From contig MFPR01000019.1 of assembly GCA_001784175.1 (NCBI GenBank), positions 7,994 through 71,993 of the forward strand: 64,000 bases of DNA, given 5' to 3'. The translations under genes and the position numbers were made by a program. Below are positions 39,969 to 47,500 of this stretch, one piece after another. Within the stretch, counting starts at the first letter, position 1. Each line of letters opens with the position of its first letter. Source of the DNA: Candidatus Lindowbacteria bacterium RIFCSPLOWO2_12_FULL_62_27 (GTDB lineage Bacteria > Lindowbacteria > 2-12-FULL-62-27). Below the pieces are notes generated by a model. The model worked only from the letters and a program-made list of their open reading frames with translations, ran no database searches and was not told where the DNA came from.

Positions 39969-40430
39969 TCAGGGGGCGGGAGATACGATGGAGAGATCCT
40001 TGAAATAGGCGCGATAGAATCCGAGGTCGCGGGTGAGGAATTGGTCGGCGCAGGTTTGGGCGTGGGACGCGACCAGAAAATCGGGGAGGATGCGGGTTCG
40101 CGATCCGCCGCCGGCCATGGACGGCCCAGTGCCGGTCCTGACACGGATGTCAGAGGACCGGCCGCCGGCGCGGTACTGTTTCCACATGAGCCCCGCGAGG
40201 AGGCACGCATGGCCGGGTGTGGATGCAAGCGAGATTCCGGTGTCGGACATGAATTTCTGAGTCGTCGCCTCCTCTCCGATTTGCGCCGCAAGCTCCGCAA
40301 GAACGACTTCGCACACCACCAGTTGCCCCTGTTGGAGCGCCGCATAGAGCGCGGCGCTGGACGCGGCGCGCCATTGGGGATCGGGGAGAAGGACGTCGAG
40401 CAGGATGTTGGTGTCGACGGCGGTGATCAT
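39969..40430 (-). CDS. PIN-domain ribonuclease toxin with an 18-residue insert
   Basis: 153 residues: TAVDTNILLDVLLPD (acidic motif), VVCEVVLAELAAQIG (Glu motif), ILPDFLVASHA (third motif) and TRDLGFYRAYF (fourth). Eighteen extra residues (RSSDIRVRTGTGPSMAGG) sit before GSRTRILPDF, encoded by a 54-nt insert between direct repeats GCCGCCGGC (plus strand). This is the same structural position as the insert in vapC. It forms a pair with the AbrB-type gene upstream, overlapping by 4 bp. Confidence 0.9.
   Translation of the reverse strand: MITAVDTNILLDVLLPDPQWRAASSAALYAALQQGQLVVCEVVLAELAAQIGEEATTQKFMSDTGISLASTPGHACLLAGLMWKQYRAGGRSSDIRVRTGTGPSMAGGGSRTRILPDFLVASHAQTCADQFLTRDLGFYRAYFKDLSIVSPAP
40107..40169 (-). 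repeat. In-frame palindromic insert in the second PIN gene
   Basis: Direct repeats GCCGCCGGC at 40107-40115 and 40161-40169, 54 nt apart. The interior folds as CCGGTCCTGACA / TGTCAGAGGACCGG. Related to the vapC insert by GTCAG and CCGGCACT blocks, read here on the opposite strand. Confidence 0.75.
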
Positions 40431-40645
40431 GAAGGATGCCCGCGCATCTTTTTGACCAGCCGGTCGCTCGACTGGGGCCGCTTGAGGGCGCCGGCCCAGC
40501 CCTCGAAGGGGTTTGGGCCGATCTTCTTGGTAATGACGATCCTGCCGCCGTCGATCGCAAACTCGACTTCGGAATTCTCCTCGATCCCCGTCTTTCGCCG
40601 GATCTCCCTGGGAATCGTCACCTGCCCGCGCCGCGTGACTTTCAT
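40427..40645 (-). CDS. AbrB/SpoVT-type antitoxin
   Basis: 72 residues beginning MKVTRRGQVTIPREIRRKTGI, the classic swapped-hairpin AbrB fold, followed by GRIVITKK and a tail (GWAGALKRPQSSDRLVKKMRG) likely to bind the PIN toxin. ATG 40645 has AAAGGAG eight bases upstream. The frame is open further upstream into a foldback repeat, but that is not expected to be coding. Confidence 0.92.
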   Translation of the reverse strand: MKVTRRGQVTIPREIRRKTGIEENSEVEFAIDGGRIVITKKIGPNPFEGWAGALKRPQSSDRLVKKMRGHPS

Positions 40646-40695
40646 GCTCACAGCTCCTTTTGTCAGCCCCAGGTAAAGCGCGACGAAAACATCTG

Positions 40696-40796
40696 CCACG
40701 AACGAACACGAACTTGGAACACGAACGAACACGAACATTTTCACATGGGATTAATGTTCTTTCGTGTCCGTTCGTGATCGTTCGTGACGTTCGTGG
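40696..40796. repeat. Foldback repeat with CACGAACGAA-type words
   Basis: The left arm begins CCACGAACGAACACGAAC and the right arm ends GTTCGTGG; arms of about 45 bp are imperfect reverse complements. Each arm repeats CACGAAC every 8-11 bases. Same design as 44405-44539, which uses CACGAATG. Confidence 0.85.
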
Positions 40797-41572
40797 TCAT
40801 GGGGTTGCGATGTTTCCCCTTCTATCTACCAATATCCTATTTCCTATTCCTACTTCTTGTAATATTATTCCGCATCTGGGCGATCCGGTCAAGCCTACTA
40901 CCAGTAAATATATATACTAAAAGCTCTAAAATATGATGAACCCGGATTTCCCGTTTTGAAACTACGCGCGGATCGCGTCGTAACTTCCATGTTAGTCAAT
41001 AAGCTATAATCGTTTCTCTGCATATCATGGGAAGCCACGCTTCTCCTTCTTGCAAAATGGCCCATCCATAAATGACCCATCCGCTGTGTGGTTAACTTTC
41101 TACAAATTAATAGCTTATAAATAACCTCTTCGCGGCGGAGTCTCTGGGTCGGATTTTGCACTGCTGTATGTATATGTATATTCCTATGGTAATTCGACCC
41201 ATCTGTTTCAAGGCTTCTTCGGGGTTCTATCCCGGCCATCCGGTCCCGGATGCCCGGGGCCGGACCGTTGTCACCAGTTACCGATTCCCGATCACCGACT
41301 TCCAGAAATCCTGATCATGATATCAAGGGCGCTCACACTTGTTGTCTATCCCGTATATATATTTCCAAAAGCAGTTCAAATCCCCTCGATCCCGCCGGTC
41401 AGCCGCTAATCCCATGTCCCTCCGCCGAATCCCCCCAGGTATCCTCACGGCGGTCTTATATACATACAAGTTATTGCGACGCGGTTGGGGTAACTTAACA
41501 ACTTGCGGTCTGGCCCAGAAAGTCCATAACTCAATACCCGGCACCATCGCCGCTCTGGGGAAGAGGATCGCG
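40797..41572. other. AT-rich gene-free stretch with isolated word-like repeats
   Basis: About 780 bp with lower GC than its surroundings and no supported gene. It contains single-arm word runs, for example TATCCTATTTCCTATTCC (40842-40859) and ACCGATTCCCGATCACCGA (41280-41298), and the string TATATACATACAAG near 41458 that also occurs at 38227. No tRNA or clear terminator was found. Confidence 0.5.
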
Positions 41573-41625
41573 GATTCGATTGTGATTTTTGAGGCGCCCG
41601 CGGTCCGTTGTGGGGCTGGGAACGG

Positions 41626-41922
41626 TTATCTAAATTTGAGGAACAGGCCAAGCACGACGGCGGCCTGGCCGAGCCAGAAGAGGAACATCCATTTAATGAT
41701 TTCGGCGCGGAGTTTGCCGAGTTCGTCATGCATTTCAACGCGGAGTTTGCCGAGTTCTTCCGCGAGGCGGCGTTCGAATCGTTCGGCGGCGAGTTCAATC
41801 ACGTCCCTTTTGTTCTCATTGAGCGCGCCATTGACGACGCCATTGACGAATTCCACCAGCCGGTCGGCGCCGTCCTCGCCCAATTTCTCGCGCAGCGCTT
41901 TAGGCACCGTCACCACCGGCAT
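41626..41922 (-). CDS. Small coiled-coil protein with C-terminal membrane anchor (a1)
   Basis: 98 residues. It begins MPVVTVPKALREKLGEDGADRLVEFVN, followed by a coiled coil (FERRLAEELGKLRVEMHDELGKLRAEI) and a single membrane helix (WMFLFWLGQAAVVLGLFL). This is the pattern of DUF1640/LA_3696-like small proteins, whose function is unknown. ATG 41922 has a perfect GAAGGAGGT six bases upstream. Paralogue of the gene at 43093-43455. Confidence 0.85.
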   Translation of the reverse strand: MPVVTVPKALREKLGEDGADRLVEFVNGVVNGALNENKRDVIELAAERFERRLAEELGKLRVEMHDELGKLRAEIIKWMFLFWLGQAAVVLGLFLKFR

Positions 41923-41993
41923 GGCAAACCTCCTTCAGCTTTCATCCTTGTCAGTATACCTGCGCCTGCAGAGGGAAGTCAAATGAGCCGGGT

Positions 41994-42170
41994 ATTTCGG
42001 ATTTTAAATCCAAAATCCAAAATCCAAAATCCAAAATCCCAACTCCCAGCCCCGGCCCGCCGCCCGAATCTGTCCCGGTTCCTGGTTTCCGGATTCGCGA
42101 TCCCCTCCCTCGCTCTCCTCGCGCCGGCGCCGGCGATGGGGAAGAGGATGGCGGATTCTAGTGTGATTTT
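41994..42170 (+). repeat. Signal-peptide-like fragment with AAATCC tract (copy 2)
   Basis: A tract of AAATCCA repeated about every 7 bases (41994-42039) is followed by a segment encoding NLSRFLVSGF, LALLAPAPAMG and ADSSVIF on the plus strand. This is nearly the signal peptide and first mature residues of the 44567-61078 protein. It ends directly before the 3' end of gene b1. CTAG at 42158-42161 is the empty counterpart of the element insertion at 43919. Confidence 0.8.
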
Positions 42171-42180
42171 CGGCGAAGGG

Positions 42181-42522
42181 TTATTTTCGGCCGTTGAGGA
42201 TGGCGGTGTACAACTGGTCGATGCGGGCGTTCAGATCGGCGAATTTCTGGTCGATGGCGGCGAATTTCTGGTCAATCGCGGAAAACCGCTGGTCCATTTT
42301 CTGGTCCAAGGCTTCAAACCGGCGGTTGATTTCGGACTGGAGGGTGTCAAACCTGGTTTCCACATGCTCGACGCGCCGCCGAAGTTCAGTAACCTCATGT
42401 CTGAGTTCCGACACGTCCTGTCTGAGGTCCGACAAACCTTCTTTCAACGTTTCCGTCCGTTTGTCGATCACGTCATACAGCATTTCATTGGTGATCCGTT
42501 TGACGATGTCCTGAGCTTTCAT
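42181..42522 (-). CDS. Small coiled-coil protein (b1)
   Basis: 113 residues from ATG 42522 (AGGA eight bases upstream; TTG 42558 and ATG 42531 are alternatives). MKAQDIVKRITNEMLYDVIDKRTE is followed by almost continuous heptads (LRQDVSELRHEVTELRRRVEHVE..., then DQKFAAIDQKFA repeats) and the tail RIDQLYTAILNGRK. No membrane segment. Family unknown. Paralogue b2 at 44058-44324 has fewer heptads. Confidence 0.75.
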   Translation of the reverse strand: MKAQDIVKRITNEMLYDVIDKRTETLKEGLSDLRQDVSELRHEVTELRRRVEHVETRFDTLQSEINRRFEALDQKMDQRFSAIDQKFAAIDQKFADLNARIDQLYTAILNGRK

Positions 42523-42605
42523 CGCCCTCATCCTACCAACCGCATCGAGGGCAGTCAAGATTTCCGTGCCCGTGAACGTGCCCGAACCCGGGATCGGGTA
42601 TTATG

Positions 42606-42671
42606 GCCACAAAAGGCGCAAAAGTCACAAGAAAACTCACAAAATTATGTGCATTTTGTGCTTTTTGTGGC
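42606..42671. repeat. Foldback repeat with CACAAAAG-type words
   Basis: GCCACAAAAGG at 42606 pairs with CTTTTTGTGGC ending at 42671; arms repeat CACAA every 8-9 bases. Related in sequence to the core of the element at 43919-44034. Confidence 0.8.
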
Positions 42672-42745
42672 TGGATCATCAACGACCGTTTTGCAGAAGG
42701 CTCCGCAGTCATGACCTGCCGGCAGATCGAGAAAAAGAATCTTGA

Positions 42746-42827
42746 ACTACGAAAGGACGCGAAAGGACGCGAAAGGGGCAAATTCCACCATGAAATTTTT
42801 CGCGAACTTTTGCGTTCCATTCGTAGT
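42746..42827. repeat. Foldback repeat with GAAAGGACGC-type words
   Basis: ACTACGAAAGGACGCGAAAG at 42746 pairs with the end of TTGCGTTCCATTCGTAGT at 42827. The left arm repeats CGAAAGGACG every 10 bases. Confidence 0.8.
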
Positions 42828-42854
42828 AAATGGAATTATCGAGTTTGGCAACTT

Positions 42855-43061
42855 TTGAAATCCGAAATCCGAATCTCGAAATCCGAAACAAATCAGAATG
42901 TTCCAAATCCAAAATCCAAAATCCAAAATCCCAACCGCCGTCCCGCCGCCCGATCCTGTCCCGGTTCCTGGTTTCCGGATTCTCGATTCTCTCCCTTGCG
43001 CTCCTTTCGCCGGCGCCGGCGCTGGGGAAGATGATGGCGGATTCGACTGTGATTTTTGAGG
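42855..43061 (+). repeat. Signal-peptide-like fragment with AAATCC tracts (copy 3)
   Basis: AAATCCGA and AAATCCA word tracts (42857-42942) lead into a segment encoding RPILSRFLVSGF, LALLSPAPALGKMMADSTVIFE, the closest copy to the real N-terminus at 44567. It runs into the 3' end of gene a2. Confidence 0.8.
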
Positions 43062-43092
43062 AGCCTGCGATCAGTTGCGGGGCTGGGAAGGG

Positions 43093-43455
43093 TTATCTAA
43101 ATTTCAGGAACAGGCCAAGCACGACGGCGGCCTGGCCGAGCCAGAAGAGGAACATCCATTTAATGATCTCGGCGCGGAGTTTGCCGAGTTCGTCGTGCAT
43201 TTCGGCGCGGAGTTTGCCGATCTCCGAATGGAGGGCGCCGAAGAATTCGGCGCGGAGTTTGCCGAGTTCGTCGTGCATTTCGACGCGGAGTTTGCCGATC
43301 TCTTCGGAAAGTCTGCGGGCGAATTTGTCATCGACCAACGAAACGATTTCAGATCGCAGGGCGCCGTTGGTGCGGGCAACAAACTCCACCAGCCCCTCAA
43401 CGCCGTCATCGCCCATTTTTTCCCTGAGCACGCGCGGAACCGTCATGACGGTCAT
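43093..43455 (-). CDS. Small coiled-coil protein with membrane anchor (a2)
   Basis: 120 residues, same plan as a1 (MTVMTVPRVLREKMGDDGVEGLVEF..., coiled coil, WMFLFWLGQAAVVLGLFL). The coiled coil is longer because the segment EIGKLR-EMHDELGKLRAE occurs twice (about 26 residues, visible as a ~78-bp tandem repeat at 43180-43300). ATG 43455 overlaps the stop of the gene upstream by 4 bp. Confidence 0.85.
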   Translation of the reverse strand: MTVMTVPRVLREKMGDDGVEGLVEFVARTNGALRSEIVSLVDDKFARRLSEEIGKLRVEMHDELGKLRAEFFGALHSEIGKLRAEMHDELGKLRAEIIKWMFLFWLGQAAVVLGLFLKFR

Positions 43456-43664
43456 GCCCGTCCGTTCTCCTTCTTCACCTGCGCGAAATACTCCGCCAGA
43501 CCTTTGGCCGCCTCGTCCCCGAGTTTATCGAGAAGCAGGTGCGGCATGACCCGGAGGTTCGCGTCCGTGTCCGGCGTGGCGGCATTGAAGAAATCGACCA
43601 GCGCGTCCGCTCCATCCTCGCCCAGTTTCTTCCGCAGCACCTTCGGCACCGTTACAATCGTCAT
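43452..43664 (-). CDS. Small protein related to the N-terminus of a1/a2
   Basis: 70 residues. It starts TIVTVPKVLRKKLGEDGADALVDFFN, clearly the same N-terminal unit as a1 and a2, and has a second similar unit (MPHLLLDKLGDEAAKGLAEYF) instead of a coiled coil and membrane helix. Overlaps a2 by 4 bp, so the two probably form an operon. Function unknown. No strong ribosome-binding site. Confidence 0.7.
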   Translation of the reverse strand: MTIVTVPKVLRKKLGEDGADALVDFFNAATPDTDANLRVMPHLLLDKLGDEAAKGLAEYFAQVKKENGRA

Positions 43665-43745
43665 GTCTGAAGTCTACCGATGGCGCCGTCCGAAGTCAAC
43701 CGTTCCCGGAGGCCAACCATGACCCGCCGTGCGCCATTGACTTGG

Positions 43746-43914
43746 ATATTTCGGATTGTGGATCGGGGACTGCGGATTTTAAATCCAAAATCCAAAATCC
43801 AAAATCCAAAATCCCAAACGCCGTCCCGCCGCCCGAATCTGTTCCGGTTTCTCGTTTCAGGATTCGCGATTCTCTCCCTCGCTCTGCTCGCGCCGGCGCT
43901 GGGGATGGCGGATT
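43746..43914 (+). repeat. Signal-peptide-like fragment with AAATCC tract (copy 4, interrupted)
   Basis: The AAATCC tract (43781-43816) is followed by a segment encoding NLFRFLVSGFAILSLALLAP and MADS. The copy is cut at CTAG (43915) by the 116-bp element and resumes at 44039 (TGTGATTTTCGG). Confidence 0.8.
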
Positions 43915-43918
43915 CTAG

Positions 43919-44034
43919 AAGCTATCTCAAAAATCATTACTGGCCACAAGAAGCACAAGAGTCACAAGATGCTCAAGGGAAACTCGGAATTTTTGTGCCT
44001 CCTGTGCCTCTTGCGGCTAATTTTGAGACAGGTT
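43919..44034. mobile_element. 116-bp MITE-like foldback element with CTAG target duplication
   Basis: The ends AAGCTATCTCAAAA and, read inward from the other side, AACCTGTCTCAAAA match at 12 of 14 positions. CTAG flanks both sides (43915-43918 and 44035-44038). The interior arms pair (CCACAAGAAGCACAAGAG with CTCCTGTGCCTCTTGCGG). The sister copy of the surrounding sequence at 42151-42180 has a single CTAG and no element, showing an empty site. Too short to code for a transposase, so it would be moved in trans. Confidence 0.85.
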
Positions 44035-44057
44035 CTAGTGTGATTTTCGGCGAAGGG

Positions 44058-44324
44058 TTATTTTCGGCCGTTGAGGATGGCGGTATAGAGCTGATCGATG
44101 CGTCGGTTGAGGTCGGCGAATTTCCGGTCCATGGCCTCGAACCGGCGGTTGATGTCCGACTGCAGGTTGTCGAATCGCAATTTCAGATGTTCCATTCTCC
44201 GGCGCGGTTCTCCCACGTCCTGTTTGAAGTCCGACAACCCTTCTTTCAACGAGTCCATCCGTTTGTCGATCAAATCATACAGCATTTCCTTGGTGATCCG
44301 TTTGACGATGTCCTGAGCTTTCAT
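44058..44324 (-). CDS. Small coiled-coil protein (b2)
   Basis: 88 residues from ATG 44324 (same context as b1). MKAQDIVKRITKEMLYDLIDKR, a shorter coiled coil (SDINRRFEAMDRKFADLNRR) and the same tail IDQLYTAILNGRK as b1. Its 3' end abuts the resumed signal-peptide fragment. Family unknown. Confidence 0.75.
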   Translation of the reverse strand: MKAQDIVKRITKEMLYDLIDKRMDSLKEGLSDFKQDVGEPRRRMEHLKLRFDNLQSDINRRFEAMDRKFADLNRRIDQLYTAILNGRK

Positions 44325-44404
44325 CGCCCTCATCCTACCCACCGCGTCGACGGCAGTCAAGAAAGCGCGGAGAGCTTACGTAAGGGGTCGGTGGAAGGGG
44401 GCAT

Positions 44405-44539
44405 GAAACAATTTCACACGAATGAACACGAATGTCCGAGCACGAATGAGCACGAATTTTTTTATGGTTTAAACTTCGAAAATCTCTTATTCGTGGGCGT
44501 TCGTGTTCCATATTCGTGTCCATTCGTGTCAAATGTTTC
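44405..44539. repeat. 135-bp foldback repeat upstream of the giant gene, CACGAATG-type words
   Basis: The outer ends pair (GAAACAATTTCACACGAATG with the reverse of CATTCGTGTCAAATGTTTC), and the arms carry CACGAATG words every 9-10 bases. Its right end is 28 bases before ATG 44567, so it forms most of the leader or promoter region of the 5503-residue protein. A GTG at 44516 lies inside it and is rejected as the start. Confidence 0.85.
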
Positions 44540-44566
44540 CTCTGTTTACCAACCGGGTACGAGCTT

Positions 44567-47500
44567 ATGTTGACCCCCCGCCCGATTCTGTCCCGGTTCC
44601 TGGTTTCCGGATTCGCGATCCTCTCCCTCGCCCTCCTCGCGCCACAGCCGGCGATCGGGAAGATGATGTCGGATTCGATTGTGATTTTTGAAGTCTCTGT
44701 TGGGGCCGGAGCTGTGGCAGATGAGTACATGACGCTGTACAATCCCACGCCGGACTCCAAAGGATTGACGGCGTATCGCATGACACGGGCAACTGCAACG
44801 ATGGCGACTATGAGCGTCATTACGTCGAGAATTGACAGTACTGTTGCAGACACGATTGGCCCTTTTGGATTTTACCGGCTGGTTTCAGTGGGCGCCAATG
44901 CCGTTCTTCGAGGAACAGCAGACAGCGTGTCAAGCACGGCCACCTTGGCCGCGGACAATCAGATAATGCTTGGCCAAGCCACTTCGAACACAAACTATAC
45001 GGACAGTAGAGATCGGCTGGGGTGGGGTGCCGTCACTACTCGAAAGTTTACTGAAACGCAGGCGGTGACAGACACTACACCCGGCAATCCGCCAGCCGGC
45101 AAGGCGCTCTATCGTTTTCCGGGCAAGATTGCCGGGGGCATGATCGACCGACAACGAAACGGATTTGATTTTGATACGGCTTTGGTCACGGATACGTTCA
45201 ACACAGGGACGCGCCACCGCCGCGTTGTATTTTCATGCACGACGCCGACCAAGGCGGTGCGGGTCGGATTGGCATTCAACCTCTACTGTACGGCCACCGT
45301 CGTATATGGCGACACCTACTGGATACAGGACACGAACGTGGTCGCCTCCTATAGCGGAGATTCCGCGTGGGCGGATCTGACCGGATGGGGGAAGGACACG
45401 CTGGTGGTGGACAGTTCGGGCGACACGGCGGACACAACGGGGATATTCAGGAACGGGCTTTGTACAATGACGCTGCGGTTTACACCCTTTGCTCGCATCG
45501 CCGACACGGTTCGGATTGTGGCTTCGGACGCCTATTGTACAGGCTTCATCATTTTGCGCGTTTTCGACTCGCCGACCGCTGATCTTCCCGCGATTGGCCA
45601 TGAGACGAACGTGATTGATTTTCTTGTTAGGTGGACCATGTCGGACAGCTCGGGATTCGACAGTTACGAAATCGAGGTGTCAAAGAGCGTTGGCTTCTCG
45701 AGCATCGCCTTTGCCGACACCATCGACATCACGCAGACCAGCGACACGATCACGGGATTGTACAACGACACGTACTATTGGCGCGTGCGGTTCATCGACA
45801 ATTTCGGCGTACGCGGGAACTGGTCGGAGACGCGGTCGTTTGTGACGGACACCCTCATCGGCGCGCCGACGGCCTCGTATCCCGCGGACGCGCATGAGAC
45901 GACGTCATCGTCCGTGGTCGTCGGCTGGACGCAGGTGTCGTCCGACAGCGTGGGGATCGACAGTTACGCGGTTGAGGCGTCGACCAATGCGGGGTTCACG
46001 GCGATGGTCTTGACGGACACCGTCGACGGCACGCGCGACAACGACACGGTGACGGCGGCGACGGAGGCCACCTACTCCTGGCGTGTCCGCGCGATCGACG
46101 ATCTGGGCAATGGCGGGTCGTATTCAACGACGAGGACATTTGTGCGGACATCGGCGTCGGCGTCGCCGACGCCGAGCGTGAAGGTCGACGGCGACAGTTC
46201 GGACTGGGTGGGGACGCGGTCGAGCACCGTTCACGACACGGTCATATCGCTGGGCGAGTGGATATATTCAGGCGACCCGAATGATGTGCGGGGGGAAGGC
46301 ACGGACCCCGACGAGAATTACGACATCACGGAGGCGCGGCTGTCAGGCGATACGCTTCATCTTTTCATGCTCGTCGTCATGGAGGGCATCTCCTCCAACA
46401 CACTGCCGTTTGTGGGTCTGTCGGTCGACGTGGATCAAGTTTCCTACGGCATGGACTGGGCCCTGGCGGACGACGGCATGGCGAACGGCTACCCGTCCTC
46501 CGACAGATATTCCGAAACCAATGTGAGTTTCCATAGGGTGTCCGGCTCAGACACAATCGAGATGTTCGAGGCCAGCGGGTCGTGGGGCGGAAATTGGTGG
46601 CATTCTCCAGTCGCCACGCCCCGTGCCGCGGATTCGATATCGATCAGCACGACGAACGAGGTTGTGGAGGCGGCGCTTCGCTGGGAAGATCTCAGCGTGA
46701 CGCTGCCCAAACGGCTCAAATTCGTGCTGGCCAGCGCCGAAAACGACGGCACCTCGTGCGACAACGACGGCACGGTGGACAGAGCCGATGCCGACATCCT
46801 TGACGTCGTCACGCCGTATTACTCCGGCTCGGCGAGTTCATGGACGCGCGACATCATCGACGATGAATACGATTACTCGTTCGTTGTCAACTTCAACAAA
46901 AACGGCAAAGTCAATCACCCGCCGGACACCCCGACTTTGAGCTCTCCGGCGGACGGCACGATTTACACGTCCGCCACCACCGTGACGATGTCGTGGACCC
47001 TGAACGACGCGACGGCCGACGTCTCCAAGGACTCGATGGTCCATATCCAGATCGGCACCAACTCGGACTCGAACGACGTGCTGGACACGAAGATCCATGG
47101 CGCCGACCTCGATCTGGACTTCCGGTTCTGGATGGAGGACACCTACTACTGGCGCATCCGCCATGCCGACGATTTCAACACGTCGCCGTGGACGAAGTCC
47201 CGGCAATTCGGGATACAGCTTTCGGCCACGACCGGGTTCGCCGTGGACGGCGACACGTCGGAGTGGACCGGGACGCCCTCATCGACGGCGCATGACACGG
47301 CGATCTCGAACGGCGAGTTCATCTACACCGGCGTCGCCTACGACATGCGGACCGACCCGGACATCTGGACGGATTCCAACTACGACATCACACAGGTGCG
47401 GTTTTCCGGAGACACGAACCATCTCTACCTCATGGTGGCGATCTCGGTATTGAGCGACCGCCGCGCGCCGCACATTGCGTTCAATGTGGACCTCGATCAG

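Follow-up and report, generated by a model that had tools for sequence, protein, structure and literature searches.

Relics of the start of a giant exoprotein gene, probably carried along by segmental tandem duplication of coiled-coil genes in a Lindowbacteria genome

Introduction

Segmental tandem duplication that leaves a truncated gene at the end of the duplicated unit is familiar from bacterial duplications in general. A different fate for partial gene copies is illustrated by the silent vls cassettes of Borrelia, which correspond to the variable middle region of the expressed gene and serve as donors for gene conversion (PMC11499132). The locus analyzed here invites comparison with both. 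It lies in a 4.39-Mb genome assembled in 44 contigs, and the stretch under study (the window) is 64 kb long and is placed at C19:7994-71993. An earlier note on this DNA had reported four decayed copies of the 5' end of a giant exoprotein gene, interleaved with coiled-coil genes, and had offered two readings: a tandemly duplicated block that had picked up the start of this gene, or a stock of alternative 5' ends kept for cassette switching.

Results

The product of the giant gene (Table 1) begins with a signal peptide followed by KMMSDSIVIF and contains weak lamin-tail-like and fibronectin-like stretches; the translated start of the gene, RFLVSGFAILSLALLAPQPAIGKMMSDSIVIF, served as the reference for the fragments. 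Other members of the giant family are found at C32, C43 and C28 of the same genome and in the relative G002, and a first scan of a set of genome contigs for the N-terminus of the giant gene gave no match. The contig with the C32 sibling (L045:12216-13475, G000:C32) ends in tandem repeats of about 300 bp with about 81% identity.

Upstream of the giant gene lie four fragments homologous to its codons ~4-41 (BLASTN E-values of 1e-19 to 1e-39). The count given in the earlier note thus stands, except that the first copy, f0, has only the tail and no signal peptide, which is present in the other three. In a self-BLASTN of positions 38-46 kb of the window, f1 matched 44574-44688 of the giant gene (89.6%, 2e-39), f2 matched 44574-44691 (87.3%, 1e-36) and f3, over 43825-43894, matched 44574-44643 (87.1%, 8e-19), while the tail-only copy, at 41548, aligned with 43014 (92% over 207 bp). 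The fragments translate to RFLVSGFAIPSLALLAPAPAMGKRMADSSVIF, RFLVSGFSILSLALLSPAPALGKMMADSTVIF, RFLVSGFAILSLALLAPALGMADS (interrupted) and LGKRIADSIVIF (tail only), and cover the signal peptide and about 10 further residues, no more. All full fragments share a right-hand junction, GTGATTTT (codon ~41), and a left flank, AAATCC/CCCGCCGCCCG, that is absent from the giant gene; the start codon of the giant gene and its upstream sequence are missing from them, homology stopping at GTGATTTT and before the ATG. Moreover, the Ala codon of the ADS motif is GCG in all four fragments, in contrast to TCG (SDS) in the giant gene and in at least three relatives (C32, C43 and G002). The insert that splits f3 is flanked by a 6-bp target duplication, TTCTAG (43913-43918 and 44033-44038).

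Table 1. Positions in the window of the fragments, the small coiled-coil genes and the giant gene
Feature	Position	Strand	Remarks
f0, tail only (GKRIADSIVIF)	41552..41590	+	without signal peptide; directly 3' of a1
a1, LA_3696-family membrane-anchored coiled-coil protein, 98 aa	41626..41922	-	promoter TTGACT-18-TATACT at 41982-41953
(AAATCCA)n heptamer repeat and f1	42006..42170	+	f1 at 42056-42170; giant-gene codons ~4-41
b1, coiled-coil protein, 113 aa	42181..42522	-	promoter TTGACT-17-TAGGAT at 42558-42530
(AAATCCA)n and f2	42905..43059	+	f2 at 42942-43059
a2, LA_3696 family, 120 aa	43093..43455	-	almost the same as a1 in its last part; first half far more divergent
a2', short a-like gene, 70 aa, N-terminal LA_3696 domain	43452..43664	-	bears the promoter of the a2'-a2 pair, TTGACT-17-TAGACT at 43699-43671
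(AAATCCA)n and first part of f3	43781..43918	+	f3 part at 43825-43918; rest of f3 from 44033
Palindromic MITE-like insert splitting f3, 114 bp	43919..44032		imperfect terminal inverted repeats
b2, coiled-coil protein, 88 aa	44058..44324	-	80% identical to b1, in-frame deletions; promoter TTGACT-17-TAGGAT at 44360-44332
Giant exoprotein gene, intact, 5503 aa	44567..61078	+	probable source of fragments

Every fragment directly adjoins the 3' terminus of a gene on the minus strand; these genes follow one another as a1, b1, a2 and b2, just as the earlier note had it, with the short a-like gene a2' in addition. The block of 1-1.3 kb proposed there does not fit the distances: fragments are spaced by 0.75-0.89 kb, and the a-b pair repeats with a period of ~1.47-1.88 kb. 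The N-terminal domain of the LA_3696 family (NF047472) scores above the curated cut-off of 32 bits in a1, a2 and a2' (59.6, 49.5 and 44.6 bits, respectively), and b1 and b2 are generic coiled coils. The region at 41.0-44.8 kb holds seven sigma-70-type promoter matches (1.9 expected by chance), four of which lie on the minus strand directly upstream of a1, a2', b1 and b2; no minus-strand terminator was found between the small genes and the fragments. On the plus strand, neither the fragments nor the giant gene had a consensus sigma-70-type promoter immediately before them in the same scan. Substitution is lower at nonsynonymous than at synonymous sites both in b1/b2 (pS 0.38, pN 0.11) and in the C-terminal part of a1/a2 (pS 0.17, pN 0.01), which points to purifying selection on the small genes (pN/pS ~0.3).

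The fragments, by comparison, show no sign of coding selection: the changes are about evenly spread over the three codon positions (2/6/4 for f1 and the giant gene, 5/3/7 for f2 and the giant gene, 3/4/6 for f1 and f2), a weak test given that it covers only ~115 bp with 12-15 changes per pair. Nor are the fragments more conserved than their flanks; an apparent excess of conservation relative to the synonymous sites of b1/b2 proved spurious, being caused by the divergent middle of these genes. In-frame ATGs occur upstream of three fragments. Plus-strand open frames (up to 368 codons) span the fragments and the a and b genes, and were considered as possible fused genes; in simulations with synonymous codons, the main antisense frame stays open by chance in 53-79% of cases, so these frames carry no meaning.

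The blocks pair up, f0-a1 with f2-a2 and f1-b1 with f3-b2, mostly at 83-100% identity across fragment, flank and gene ends. These are repeats in the same orientation that span several features and have a common junction, as segmental tandem duplication would leave, and the shared junctions and matching blocks support the earlier proposal that a block which had captured the start of an exoprotein gene was tandemly duplicated. Aligned with each other, the promoter regions of a1 and b1/b2 stay in register down to GATGAAAGCT, which contains the start codon of b and is retained in a1 upstream of its own start; this suggests common descent of the a and b blocks, with gene bodies exchanged between them. 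The identity, which falls to roughly 40-75% in the middle of b1/b2 and in the N-terminal half of a1/a2 while the flanks stay high, also fits such an exchange. The exchange is a conclusion that we infer from short shared flanks.

Within the genome, the fragments and the a and b genes occur solely at this locus; the genome-wide spread of fragments that would have told against the earlier note is not seen. A mobile signal-peptide element was also considered and rejected, matches elsewhere in the genome being limited to the AAATCC repeat. The (AAATCCA)n heptamer itself (42006-42046, 42905-42931 and 43781-43814 in the window) gives 39 pattern matches over many contigs, and no comparable duplicated gene starts were seen around the other AAATCC sites examined, so that these repeats were discarded as a general cause. 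The idea that similar fragments might stand upstream of other giant genes was not borne out: there are no copies of the 5' end near the siblings at C32, C43 and C28 or in G002. The block is also absent from both genomes of the same family that were examined, neither of them a close relative. Long palindromes of several kinds (CACAA-, CGAAAGGACG- and CACGAATGAACACGAA-type) occupy intergenic stretches at 42605-42672, 42746-42826, 44415-44530 and 40687-40780, and one of the CACGAATGAACACGAA type immediately precedes the giant gene. On the minus strand of 39969-40709, upstream of the block, a gene for a MazE/AbrB-type antitoxin (40430-40645) stands beside a probable PIN-type toxin gene, the toxin having been named by eye.

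Genes of the LA_3696 type were found at 80 loci in named genomes, with a second copy nearby in 9 of them. Run over ~88 further loci that have a-type genes, an automatic search for duplicated ends of adjacent genes flagged a few, none convincing. That LA_3696 loci behave like this in general was rejected as an explanation, since only one of them, L086, spotted by eye, is similar. This array, from an unrelated genome (L086:1270-10399, JAGLOF010000033.1; also G060:C151:21787-32670), holds three LA_3696 genes among others that were named by eye as DUF433/DUF5615-like, BrnT/DUF2283-like, HipA-like and MNT/HEPN-like, separated by repeats of ~170-430 bp, parts of which are degenerate copies of the 3' end of a beta-barrel-like gene. 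We regard L086 as a loose parallel that falls short of proving a common mechanism. In another unrelated genome (L064:6474-8318, G058:C120), three LA_3696-like/coiled-coil membrane genes lie in tandem, in units of ~0.5-0.7 kb. A search of the literature on LA_3696 and on truncated tandem copies yielded nothing useful.

Discussion

We favour the view that the fragments are passive relics, carried along by segmental tandem duplication of the coiled-coil genes, and put its probability at about 0.8; that the fragments are no better conserved than their surroundings argues for it. In the likely course of events, the start of the giant gene, up to codon ~41, would have been fused, in a single event, to the sequence 3' of a minus-strand coiled-coil gene, and the resulting block (fragment, 3' flank, coiled-coil gene, promoter and AAATCC repeat) would have been multiplied by tandem duplication, probably via recombination between copies. 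In some copies gene body a would have been swapped for b or the reverse, and the a-b pair would have been duplicated as one unit. The palindromic insert would have entered f3 later, after multiplication of the fragments. Selection acts on the coiled-coil genes, and the fragments would drift. The order of these events and the recombination mechanism are our reconstruction, and the parent of the fragments could be a lost sibling gene instead of the giant gene itself.

The alternatives fare less well. Coiled-coil and toxin-antitoxin genes might have integrated at the end of a gene several times over, a further copy of this end arriving with each, like islands at tRNA genes; the L086 array, in which LA_3696 genes and toxin-antitoxin-like pairs lie among decayed gene ends, and the antitoxin gene just upstream of the block here would agree with this. 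Such insertion is nevertheless unlikely, as no integrase was seen beside the block (the neighbouring genes were looked over unsystematically), neither terminal repeats nor target duplications were seen at its edges, the pattern was clear at none of the ~88 other loci by automatic screen, and the blocks are restricted to one locus. It is also conceivable that the captured starts were kept because transcripts of a and b run through them, so that their 3' UTRs would pair as antisense with the giant mRNA at codons ~4-41 and repress it. All of the fragments fall within what are probably 3' UTRs of the small genes, so pairing is physically possible; the promoters at a1, b1, a2' and b2, with no terminator found in between, are compatible with it, and the predicted duplexes of f1-f3 (-148 to -218 kcal/mol) are far stronger than those of shuffled sequences (means of -79 to -89). 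Strong duplexes, however, are the automatic outcome of homology, the fragments are conserved no more than their flanks, and much of the match is lost in f0 and f3. We found nothing that supports retention for this purpose and consider it highly improbable; if true, each small gene would lower expression of the neighbouring giant exoprotein.

The fragments could, finally, form a reserve of silent 5' ends from which the start of the giant gene is replaced by recombination. Several tandem partial copies do lie directly upstream of one expressed gene, their identity of 87-90% is similar to the ~90% given for vls cassettes (PMC11499132), and three fragments have in-frame ATGs upstream. Yet the fragments consist almost entirely of a signal peptide that is cleaved off, so that the mature protein would stay unvaried; they carry neither variants of an expressed variable region nor the homology on both sides of a variable part from which gene conversion could proceed, the ATG and flank of the giant gene having no counterpart in them. 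Moreover, no consensus promoter immediately precedes them on the plus strand, f0 lacks the signal peptide, f3 is split, substitutions are even across codon positions (in the weak test above), and the sibling giant genes of this genome and of G002 have no such fragments. The change being confined to a cleaved signal peptide, with homology absent on the far side and one fragment broken, makes switching extremely unlikely, and this part of the earlier note finds no support.

Passive relics of this kind matter in two respects. Duplication of small, selected genes can leave beside the gene of a large surface protein a row of convincing, probably functionless gene starts, and such rows can pass for a switching system. 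In addition, the loose parallel with L086 suggests that arrays of LA_3696 and toxin-antitoxin genes may suit the study of how blocks with captured gene ends grow.

Set against known systems, the small genes a1, a2 and a2' belong with the LA_3696 family (NCBIfam NF047472), whose copies cluster, two or three close together, in several other genomes as well, whereas nearly all of those other multi-copy loci lack an accompanying duplicate of part of a neighbouring gene. With vls (PMC11499132) the locus shares partial copies that lie contiguously beside a single expressed gene and resemble part of it at about 90% identity; here, in contrast, the copies match the signal peptide region only, alternate with other genes and are damaged. 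Segmental tandem duplication differs from what we describe in that the a and b bodies have apparently been exchanged here between otherwise homologous blocks, and that the copies are old and diverged, but it accounts for the repeated whole small genes, the cut-off start of a neighbouring gene and the junction common to all copies.
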